A stretch of DNA of 64,000 nt. Source: Dipodascopsis uninucleata var. uninucleata (Eukaryota; Ascomycota; Lipomycetes; Lipomycetales; Lipomycetaceae). The stretch's first letter is position 1. Every line of letters starts with the position of its first letter. Under the pieces are notes generated by a model that had not been told where the DNA came from, made no database searches, and saw nothing but the letters and a program-made list of their open reading frames with translations. Below, piece by piece: positions 30,496 to 34,296 of this stretch. The stretch spans positions 421,609-485,608 of the forward strand of contig JAJLTO010000013.1 in the NCBI GenBank assembly GCA_030568195.1. Direction: 5' to 3'. The translations under genes were made by a program, and so were the position numbers.

Positions 30496-31711
30496 CTACA
30501 AGAAGTATTCTGACCTTTGGTTTCTTTGAGGCATCAATCGGGTATCATCGTTAACAGCATTGAAGATTACAAACTCAGGCTTAAGGTTATTATCAGTTAT
30601 ACGCATGATACTCGCAACATTACCGCACCTGTAACAGTAATTAGGCGCACTCCATACAGTAACAACATTCTTCTGGTCGAAATGATATTTGAAACCTTCT
30701 TGTACAAGCTGGTGTGCTCTTGCAACGAGCTGCAGACCATTAACGTGATTGAACTCAGAAGCAACTTTTGCTCCAAAAATCCATCCTGCCCCACGAGGAG
30801 ACACACCCCATGTGTCAACGTCATCAGGGTCAGACCAAACTAGATCGCAGAAAGCACCTTCTTGAGGGATTTCCTGTGCCCTTGCAACTACACGGATCTG
30901 GTCGAGAGTACGAATCTCTGGACTTAGACCACCGTGAACACAAAGAATTCGGCCGTCAATGATGGCAGCTAGCGCCAGAAAGTCAAAAACTTGACAGCAA
31001 TATTGCCAAACGCTTGCTCCTCCATATTTATTGTGGCATTCTTCGTAGAATCCGTAAACCTGGGTGATTTGTCGAGACTCATGGTTTCCTCGAACCAGAG
31101 TTAGGCGTTGAGGATATTTTGCTTTTAAACACATCAAAAGAGTGAATGTCTCTAAACTGAAGTAACCTCGATCAACGAAATCACCCTGTAAAGCAAATGT
31201 AAGTGTAAACTCATAAATTTAAAAAACATATACACATTTATAGTACTTACCAAAAATACGTAATTTACATTGTCAGGCATACCGCCGCCGACCCTAAATA
31301 ATTCCAAGAGATCATGAAATTGTCCATGTATATCTGACATTTTGTATTAGATTCTATTAAAACCACAAGTATTCAGATAAAAATCTGCACATAATTACCT
31401 CTATAAAATAATATTAGCTTATCGTTATCTTGAAATATTCTCGAGTACCCCAAATTTCAATAGCCATACTTACCCACACACGGTAACCGGAGTATTTACA
31501 GGCTGAATATTTGATTCTACACGTTTACTGTCAGTATTGATTCATTTACAGATTCATTCACCTTCTTGAAATCAAGACTCAAATAGTTATTGATATATTC
31601 ACCTTCCATAAGCAACTCCTTCACAATTTCACAGAGCTGCTTCATTTCGTTCTCAGGTAAGTATTGACATTTTTTGACTGTCTCCAACCACTCGTCCGGT
31701 CCTCTAGCCAT
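30496..31711 (-). CDS. SIT4: Ser/Thr protein phosphatase Sit4 (PP6-type catalytic subunit)
   Basis: Exons 31711..31603, 31516..31474, 31400..31399, 31333..31251 and 31185..30496 give 308 aa. Sit4 acts with SAP subunits in TOR signalling and the G1/S transition. The start [20 protein letters not shown] is typical of Sit4 rather than PP2A or PP4. Metal-ligand motifs are GDIHGQF, GDFVDRG and RGNHESR, and the protein ends in the methylation tail YFL. The codons for the first GDIHG come from three exons, and the third exon is only 2 nt (AG). Its flanking introns are of normal size (73 and 65 nt) with gtaagt/ctaat/tatag and gtaatt/ctaat/tcag signals. Omitting it brings a stop eight codons later. 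Confidence 0.93.
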
Positions 31712-32787
31712 TTTGTCGAAACTTTTTTATCACAACTATGTCAATTATATCCTTTTGTTCTCTCCGTAGATGAATTTATGCACGTATAGCTATAAACATA
31801 TAAAATGCTCCAAAACAACTCTATTACGCAAGACCTCACTTGAACTAAAACCACGAATTCAATAAGAGCCAATCTCTGCTGTCAATCAATCCAAATTTCT
31901 GCGAAACCAATTCAACACAATAGAATCTATTAAGATTGATCAGCTAAGAAGATATCTCCTATTTCAATATTATTTCTCACTGTTCTTCGCGATATTGTCC
32001 GTCACTGGTCTCTTTAGAAGTGTACTAATGTCTCTTCTTTGCAGGCGTCAGCCTATTGCTAGTCGCCACTGATGCCTGATTTTCTTTTCCAGAAATATTT
32101 TTTACTACGTGAGAGCCCAACAAGTCCACTTGCAACCTATACCAAGACAATCGACAGCAAAATAAATACTGAAATTCATACAAATCGTTGTACCGTGAAG
32201 TATCTATTGCAGACCTTTTCTAACTTCGTACAGAAAAAGACCAAAAGAGAGCATGGTTTAGGGTATTGATCATGGTACAAATTACTCGGATTTAGAGGGC
32301 TCGTGTCCGGAGCAAATTAATTCTACACACCAAAGGAACGATTAGGAAGAAGAACATGCAGAAAAAAACAGTAGAACACGATCAGTCATAAGGAGCATAG
32401 AGAGGATCCACGGCAACAACTAGTGAGAATATTGAAAGCAGACTATGCTATATGAATTTAATTTTCGAATCAGAGGTAGAATTTATTAATTTTGATAGAG
32501 ATCTTGTATAATTGTACGACTATTTGAATGTGTTACGGTCCGTACGTGAAGAAGAGGACAAGCACGTACAACTATATGAAAAGCTGATTCATTTGCAAGG
32601 CAAATTGGAGTTAATATATAGGCTAACTCGAATAAAGAGAGCCTGCTTGAAGTACACTGAGAAAGGTGTCTCCGCGCGGTGCTTGTACGGGTGGAATAAT
32701 ATCATAGGGATACTAGAAGCAGAAAATTTAACGTCTAGACAGAACAGAACACACTTATACTGAAGTCAAGCAGACTTTATCAGTATA
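31712..32787. other. Divergent region SIT4/UPF3 with two small open frames
   Basis: A plus-strand frame with an ATG at 32072 (65 aa, ending KKTKREHGLGY) and another at 32512-32763 (83 aa, no ATG, stop directly upstream) lie here. Neither matches a family I can name. The second ends with a Trp-Asn-Asn segment faintly like the DASH subunit Dad2. I treat both as unproven. Confidence 0.25.
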
Positions 32788-34296
32788 ATGTCAAAGAAAA
32801 AAATACTTCTCGCGAGGCGTCCAGACAATGTAGAAAACCCAGACTTGTTGACTACAGATGTGGTATCATCAGACACCACTAGACGTGCAAATGAAGCTAG
32901 TCGTGAGCATGGCTCAAATAACAAGGAATTTGCTAGTGCTACTGTAGGTCTCGCTGCGAGTACACAGAGCGGTGGCAATACCACAGAGGGTCCTTCAAAA
33001 AAGACTAAGGCGAGGTCTTCTGGAAGACAGCGATCCATCAAGCAGAAAGAGGAAAAGCAGCAAGAGTCAGAGCTGCGAACTAAGGTCGTTATTCGTCATC
33101 TGCCGCCACTGACGGAAGAAGAAGACTTTGTCAATCTTGTTGGCGACGAGTTTCTGGGCATCGATAACGTCGAAGGATTGTATTTTGTGAAAGGGAAAAT
33201 ACATAAGAGTAGGTCTACTCCTACGACATATGGTCGTGCATATGTAAGATTTAAGAGCGTCGAAACGTTGATAAAATTTCGTCGGAAATTCTCTGGCATG
33301 TCATTAAAAGACAGCAAAGATAACGAAAGCACAATCCAGATTGAATTTGCACCATATCAAAAATTTGCCCACAGTAGGCTGACTTCTAAGGCGGCTGGCC
33401 CTGTTGACACTGATTCAGCTTCATTACAAGACAGAAGAATGGGTACCATTGAACATGATACAAGTTTTATTGCTTTCAAGAAATCCTTAGAGGAATCAAA
33501 AGAAAACATAACGAAGCTCGATTTGATGACTTTAACGACTGAGCCAACTCCAGAAGTCCTTACAACTCCGCTGATTGACTATATCAGACAGAAAAAACAT
33601 GATAGGTTAGACCGACTTCGTCGCAAGCGTGAAGCTAGACGTTCCCGTTGGACAGGAAAAGAGAGTATAACAGAAGATGAGAAGACTGAAAAGTCAAAGG
33701 AGAAGGCTGATAAGAAACGTCTTAAGCGAGAAAGACAAAAGCTTAAGAAAGACAATAAAATTAAGAAGAAAAAGAAATCAAGTAGAGATATCACGGAGAA
33801 TAATGTAGTAGATCAAGGTGACACTGTTGAGACTGGTAATACTACTAAACCAAAGGCGCAGGACCAAGAGAAATCTAAAAAGAAAAGGCGAAAGGACAGA
33901 AATAGCAAGAGGGAAAATCAGGCACAACAAGCAACTCAACTACAAGGTGATGCGGAAGAGAAACAGATCAAGCAGGACAGCGAGCCAACTTCAGCTAAGC
34001 AGAAGTCAAAGCAGTCAAAGCAGCCAAAGCAGCCAAAGCAGCCAAAACAATCAAAGACGTCAAAACAGCCAAAACCACCTACAACCACATCGATTCCGGT
34101 GCAGATACCAGCTAATTCTGATGGAAATACTGCATCTATTGATTCCAATGATACGCCATCCAATAGCTGTAGAGGACGCCGTGGTCGAGAAGGTGGCAGA
34201 GGAAGAAATGGACGTCGGGGTGGTAGAGCAAGTAATGGTGACTCAAATACAGGCTCCAATGTAAGAAATAACAAAACTGAGAATAATCAAATATGA
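32788..34296 (+). CDS. UPF3: Nonsense-mediated decay factor Upf3
   Basis: A single exon of 502 aa. Upf3 links Upf2/Upf1 to premature stop codons. The Smg4/Upf3 RNA-recognition-like domain starts at TKVVIRHLPPLTEEEDFVNL (about residue 95) and continues with GRAYVRFKS and IEFAPYQKFA. A conserved TPLIDYIRQKK helix follows. The C-terminal half is very basic: long Lys/Arg tracts, a QPKQPK repeat and an RG-rich end (about 34169-34225) suited to RNA binding or nuclear import. The start is the first ATG after an in-frame break. Convergent with the Nudix gene by 113 bp. Confidence 0.9.
   Translation: MSKKKILLARRPDNVENPDLLTTDVVSSDTTRRANEASREHGSNNKEFASATVGLAASTQSGGNTTEGPSKKTKARSSGRQRSIKQKEEKQQESELRTKVVIRHLPPLTEEEDFVNLVGDEFLGIDNVEGLYFVKGKIHKSRSTPTTYGRAYVRFKSVETLIKFRRKFSGMSLKDSKDNESTIQIEFAPYQKFAHSRLTSKAAGPVDTDSASLQDRRMGTIEHDTSFIAFKKSLEESKENITKLDLMTLTTEPTPEVLTTPLIDYIRQKKHDRLDRLRRKREARRSRWTGKESITEDEKTEKSKEKADKKRLKRERQKLKKDNKIKKKKKSSRDITENNVVDQGDTVETGNTTKPKAQDQEKSKKKRRKDRNSKRENQAQQATQLQGDAEEKQIKQDSEPTSAKQKSKQSKQPKQPKQPKQSKTSKQPKPPTTTSIPVQIPANSDGNTASIDSNDTPSNSCRGRRGREGGRGRNGRRGGRASNGDSNTGSNVRNNKTENNQI
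34012..34074 (+). repeat. 9-nt tandem repeat inside UPF3
   Basis: Seven degenerate copies of CAGCCAAAG, in frame, encode the Lys-Gln-Pro run of the Upf3 C-terminal region. Confidence 0.8.

Follow-up and report, generated by a model that had tools for sequence, protein, structure and literature searches.

A probable two-nucleotide exon of SIT4

Can an exon of two nucleotides, less than a codon, be what carries a reading frame through the catalytic motif of a conserved phosphatase? This question is raised by a minus-strand gene at positions 31711-30496 of a 64,000-nt stretch of DNA from the yeast Dipodascopsis uninucleata var. uninucleata (hereafter "the window"), whose genome comprises 16.2 Mb in 25 contigs. 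The gene encodes a 308-amino-acid, PP2A-like SIT4 (PP6-type) phosphatase, and the spliced protein carries the motifs GDxHG, GDxVDRG and GNHE together with a Metallophos domain (PF00149, 150.4 bits).

All SIT4 features lie on the minus strand. Exon 1 (31603-31711), which starts with the ATG at 31711 and the boundary of which was placed by homology (EESNIQPV), is followed by intron 1 (31517-31602; 86 nt, GTGAAT...GTGTAG) and by exon 2 (31474-31516), ending in GTG TGT GG; these elements, as well as exon 5 with the stop codon TAG (30496-31185), were derived by splicing and translating the sequence in silico. Intron 2 (31401-31473; 73 nt) extends from the donor GTAAGT via CTAAT (branch A at 31414) to TATAG, and intron 3 (31334-31398; 65 nt) from GTAATT via CTAAT (branch A at 31347) to GTCAG, the A of CTAAT lying 14 nt ahead of the following exon base in both. 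Between these introns lies the dinucleotide AG (31399-31400), which completes Gly51 (GG/A) and starts Asp52 (G/AT), while exon 4 (31251-31333) opens with AT ATA CAT GGA and contributes the rest of Asp52, followed by I-H-G. Intron 4 (31186-31250; 65 nt, GTAAGT...TTTACAG) has a poor best-scoring branch site (1st percentile). A sequence-only reading had proposed these exons, splice sites and introns of 86, 73, 65 and 65 nt, and its coordinates hold to the base; likewise, the coding sequence with AG included amounts to the 927 nt it had given (308 codons and the stop).

The AG exon carries no message beyond finishing Gly51 and Asp52. In an alignment with human PP2A, Asp52 falls on the Asp of CGDVHG, the residue of the GDxHG motif that binds metal. 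At each of the seven other phosphatase loci covered (eight loci of 16 genome matches) GDxHG is contiguous in the DNA. With a canonical acceptor and donor at its ends (TATAG/AG/GTAATT), a length within the 15 nt that delimit ultra-short microexons, and both the reading frame and a conserved motif depending on it, AG would belong to a known kind of exon.

Enumeration of introns and chance controls

Exon 2 (TGT GG) joined directly to exon 4 (AT ATA CAT GGA) is two bases short of C-G-D-I-H-G. Within 31516-31300 all 83 segments of 35-200 nt that open with GT or GC and close with AG were removed in turn, and second removals were enumerated on every first-step product, which thus covers nested introns. 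None of the 83 single removals in this interval generated VTVCGD[IVL]HGQ, and the two-step removals did so through exactly one pair of introns, excised in either order. As the sequence-only reading had claimed, and as far as GT/GC-AG introns are concerned, the frame through CGDIHG is therefore kept only with the AG exon.

To gauge how readily such a solution arises by chance, the 140-nt stretch was shuffled by dinucleotides 5000 times, with the outermost 6 nt at each end kept fixed. A motif-restoring exon of 1-12 nt was present in 163 of the shuffled sequences (3.3%), and in none of the 5000 did both introns reach at least the quality of the weaker observed intron. A single non-canonical intron (GT-TC or TA-CA) formally restores the motif as well and was rejected, since canonical ends are present. 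Formally, the ribosome could also recover GGA-GAT from the skipped mRNA by a -2 frameshift, which was judged unlikely upon inspection. A common origin of introns 2 and 3 was also considered and dismissed, as their local alignment (score 9.0, compared to a shuffled mean of 9.7) reveals no similarity.

SIT4 models in related yeasts

In a homologue search 7995 proteins were scored and the best 120 considered. The closest named proteins among these derive from Lipomyces tetrasporus (94% identity), L. starkeyi (93%), L. oligophaga (93%) and Dipodascopsis tothii (92%; now listed as Neoaidaea tothii), all of which are Lipomycetaceae. CGD[IVL]HG is kept in 116 of the best 120 of the 7995 homologues, and the exceptions (P0003, P0004, P0005 and P0007) are the only named Lipomycetaceae among the matches listed. 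At the site the first three read VCGYVYIVHNIHGQ, VCGGTLESDHNIHGQ and VYIHGQ, and the last has lost VCGDIHGQ altogether. The four clusters represent 6, 11, 2 and 1 member sequences, respectively, with one representative model compared for each. Another search, in which scoring was confined to residues 100-308 so as to include truncated models, yielded no additional named Lipomycetaceae among the matches listed. Pooling gave 158 proteins, of which 12 were set aside because the stretch preceding the motif is absent (four with the motif, eight beginning downstream of it); of the other 146, the motif is intact in 142, the same four proteins being the exceptions. An unnamed fragment of 205 amino acids (P0250) resembles the Lipomycetaceae SIT4 proteins and starts downstream of the motif.

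The named Lipomycetaceae models are thus broken exactly at the AG site in four cases out of four, and each in a different manner. The L. tetrasporus and L. starkeyi models retain C-G and I-H-G with inserts between them, which, assuming flanks as in D. uninucleata, would amount to invented exons 20 nt and 23 nt long. That both lengths equal 2 modulo 3 follows arithmetically from the assumed flanks and was discounted as evidence. The L. oligophaga model is identical at this site to the product that an alternative donor, GTGGGT, would give in the present genome. The models of the relatives are probably garbled because an exon of this size is beyond what annotation software can place, and these protein models suggest a 2-nt exon that is conserved, yet unannotated, in the Lipomycetaceae relatives. 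Failure at the same site in four relatives also argues against an assembly error or a pseudogene.

Gene prediction blind to proteins

A small, purpose-written gene finder was trained on the window and 200 kb of contig C1 without knowledge of proteins. Its splice models rest on 100 introns from those 58 of 86 predicted genes that scored at least 25; SIT4, with a score of 16.0, falls outside this training set. By its own choice the gene finder placed introns at 31473-31401 and 31398-31334, and hence the AG exon. Compared to the 100 training introns, the total score of intron 2 ranks at the 93rd and that of intron 3 at the 35th percentile, the intron 3 donor GTAATT being at the 32nd. With introns 1 and 4 set by hand, the structure containing the microexon scores 21.22, versus 14.22 for the best in-frame rival with a single intron (a margin of 7.0 nats), and the corresponding Pfam scores are 150.4 bits and, for the structure using the GTGGGT donor, 135.0 bits (a margin of 15.4 bits).

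The vote of the gene finder is not flawless. Intron 1 of SIT4 was misplaced (31561-31503), and of the five internal exons of up to 9 nt that were predicted, the SIT4 exon included, one is an artefact and one is unsupported. The former, 5 nt in length, belongs to a predicted gene that, judged by eye, is a fusion of two unrelated proteins; the latter, 9 nt in length (C1:282850-282858, plus strand), lies in a poorly conserved stretch of a gene that presumably encodes a Gdt1-like membrane protein.

Predicted tiny exons in ARP3 and a Rab-like gene

A similar case is found on the plus strand of the window in ARP3, where the gene finder, enumeration and scores point to a 4-nt exon, ACAA (565-568), which completes D-N of the motif MDNGTG. 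It is flanked by exon 1 (464-497), introns at 498-564 and 569-662, and exon 3 (663-1941). The two-intron solution is unique for MDNGTG, as single GT-AG introns lead to MGNGTG or MGKYDGTG instead, and the structure with the microexon scores 89.72 versus 83.51 in the gene model and 290.9 versus 286.0 bits with Pfam. DNGTG is present in 107 of the 120 ARP3 homologues listed. Five of the 13 exceptions are named Lipomycetaceae, which read MGNGTG (twice), MGIGTG (twice) and, in L. arxii, MDSGTG, where the Asp is retained. Four further proteins, from Cyberlindnera jadinii (MGIGTG), Trichomonascus vanleenenianus (MGNGTG), Babjeviella inositovora (MGTGTG) and Saccharomycopsis crataegensis (MGDGTG), belong to species that we take to be Saccharomycotina; other listed yeasts, e.g., Nadsonia, keep DNGTG. 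The remaining four exceptions either carry DNDTG or show an N-terminus that diverges or is short. Since MGNGTG is the product of a downstream donor of exon 1 in the present genome, the 4-nt exon may be old, as judged from the protein models of the relatives.

In a Rab-like GTPase gene on contig C1 (plus strand) a 6-nt exon, GATACG (C1:190078-190083), supplies D-T of WDTAGQE and is part of the only two-intron solution for this motif. Against the Ras profile the product scores 181.6 bits with the exon and 165.2 bits without it; skipping would keep the frame, so that the motif is what speaks for the exon. Of the DNA analysed, only the C1 block was picked independently of this finding, and its one supported tiny exon per 200 kb is too few for a genome-wide figure.

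On balance, we lean towards the view that the Lipomycetaceae and, in the case of ARP3, perhaps several Saccharomycotina lineages carry an entire class of conserved exons, 2-6 nt long, that sit within the best-conserved motifs of essential genes (CG-D-IHG in SIT4, M-DN-GTG in ARP3, W-DT-AGQE in the Rab-like gene) and would be spliced in two successive intron-defined steps despite the presence of Mago (see below) and be mis-modelled in public proteomes.

Weighing the alternatives

Given the frame, the uniqueness of the intron pair, the quality of its splice sites and the broken models in the relatives, AG at 31400-31399 is very probably a real and constitutively included 2-nt exon. The structure that comes closest to replacing it is one intron of 144 nt, which extends from the donor in TGT/GTGGGT to GTCAG and yields the protein VTVYIHGQ without C-G-D. 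This is the sole single-intron, in-frame product in 31516-31300 that keeps IHGQ, and at the site it agrees with the model deposited for L. oligophaga; yet its donor ranks at the 3rd and its total score at the 8th percentile of the 100 training introns, it forfeits the 15.4 Pfam bits and 7.0 nats given above, and it deletes an Asp present in 116 of the 116 other listed homologues. Moreover, the models of the four relatives are mutually discordant, as would be expected from annotation work-arounds, and we regard the 144-nt intron as very unlikely. Even less credence is due to an indel in the assembly or the sequencing, such that AG adjoins ATATAC in the true genome and only one intron exists: introns 2 and 3 both carry full signals, and four other species have models that break down at this very position, a coincidence not to be expected of independent errors. 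Stwintrons, where one intron is nested within a splice element of another, are known from reticulon genes of Lipomyces (PMC7138796); but the two-step enumeration, nested introns included, returns only two side-by-side introns, and at SIT4 no internal intron interrupts a donor, branch site or acceptor. A stwintron thus appears as implausible as the indel. Nor does the site act as a recursive exon of zero length, since use of TATAGAG/GTAATT drops AG and shifts the frame.

A different proposal accepts the exon and assigns it a role as a regulated poison switch, with skipping creating a target of nonsense-mediated decay (NMD) that tunes SIT4 under TOR control. Skipping could proceed through the acceptor TATAGAG/GTAATT or by pairing the donor of intron 2 with the acceptor of intron 3, and would lead to a stop at codon 58, 751 nt ahead of the normal stop. 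The sequence-only reading had located this stop eight codons downstream, which is accurate when Gly51 is counted (codon 58 is the seventh after Gly51). Retention of intron 2 or intron 3 results in stops at codons 52 and 60, respectively. UPF1 and UPF2 are encoded in the genome, and UPF3 (Smg4_UPF3, PF03467; 32788-34296, plus strand) is the divergent neighbour of SIT4, arranged head-to-head at a distance of 1,077 nt from ATG to ATG (31711-32788), in agreement with the roughly 1 kb noted before. AG-skipped transcripts could accordingly be NMD substrates, and mis-spliced SIT4 transcripts may be decayed. However, skipping would shift the frame at every exon with a length not divisible by three, and the adjacency to UPF3 is no evidence for NMD control of SIT4. 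Tiny exons also occur in the unrelated ARP3 and Rab-like genes, which suggests a general property of the genome rather than a SIT4-specific switch. The poison switch is speculative and, in our estimation, very unlikely, if slightly less so than the structural alternatives.

Relation to known microexons

The AG exon seems to be an ultra-short microexon of a known kind, apparently undescribed before in this group. Exons of 1 nt have been proven in plants, in APC11 and VPS55, where misannotation is common (PMC4674806, PMC8831610). As described in these reports, the plant cases share with SIT4 an exon of 1-2 nt between canonical introns, which is essential for the frame, missed by annotation and, in SIT4 to judge from protein models, probably conserved across related species. 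They differ in that the plant exons are documented by cDNA and, for APC11, by reporters, whereas the SIT4 exon, 2 nt long and flanked by introns of 73 and 65 nt in a yeast, is predicted from sequence.

Among fungi, the P450 genes of the basidiomycete Phanerochaete chrysosporium contain predicted microexons, the shortest of which is 6 bp (PMC1184071). According to that account, these are likewise tiny exons of fungal nuclear genes and provide a fungal precedent for the 6-nt exon of the Rab-like gene, but they encompass whole codons (2-10 amino acids), while AG is less than a codon. The Trichoderma gene Xlr2 harbours a 20-nt microexon, ten times longer than AG and regulated by glucose, and the abstract of that study states that functional microexons were previously undescribed in filamentous fungi (PMC11121469). 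The Lipomyces stwintrons, as portrayed in the published account, resemble the SIT4 arrangement in that they occur in the same family, require two consecutive splicing reactions per interval and involve intron definition; in contrast to the side-by-side introns and the 2-nt exon of SIT4, they are nested and leave no exon between them (PMC7138796). The term "microexon" is absent from the main text of that paper. In the open-access literature searched, no fungal nuclear exon of 2-4 nt and no work joining Lipomyces with microexons was found. Two apparent precedents were discarded: in a paper on HLA-F the relevant passage is a deletion table, and in a Cryptococcus paper microexons are merely a mapper setting.

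If the exon is real, near-minimal exons, demonstrated to date for plants with a length of 1 nt, would extend to a yeast family with small genomes, which would allow direct splicing tests. For an essential-type phosphatase as well as for ARP3, public Lipomycetaceae models would then lack or alter active-site residues, and the same modelling error is to be expected in other genes.

Proposed splicing of the exon

The natural route for splicing the AG exon would be intron definition, with both short flanking introns being recognized across the intron and excised successively; their small size and the position of CTAAT in each are in keeping with this route. Successive removal is expected because U1 on the intron 3 donor and the machinery at the 3' splice site of intron 2 presumably cannot share 2 nt. 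Either order would yield the same mRNA, since the core consensus of each intron is unaffected by removal of the other: the intron 3 donor reads GAG/GTAATT both before and after excision of intron 2, and the intron 2 acceptor reads TATAG/AG both before and after excision of intron 3. This independence of signals sets SIT4 apart from stwintrons.

Should intron 2, the stronger of the two, leave first, the intron 3 donor would be situated 2 nt from a fresh junction. Donors near a newly formed junction are, in human cells, held in check by the exon junction complex (EJC; PMC6224609). Human recursive splicing and EJC-repressed microexons, as reported there, resemble SIT4 in having a donor within a few nucleotides of such a junction; but while the human donors are repressed, the SIT4 donor must work if intron 2 is excised first (PMC6224609). 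The genome strongly encodes the EJC component Mago (5.2e-70), and loss of the EJC was therefore rejected as the reason why tiny exons are tolerated. The absence of a match to Btz is uninformative, as control genomes lack one as well. How the intron 3 donor would escape repression is a testable question, and the AG exon offers a test of the sequential use of splice sites 2 nt apart and of the need to exclude the EJC.

Finally, the sequence at 31403-31398 (minus strand) comprises tandem acceptors 2 nt apart (TATAG/AG/), located immediately before the intron 3 donor; the second of them would function as a recursive site of zero nt, and its use would shift the frame.
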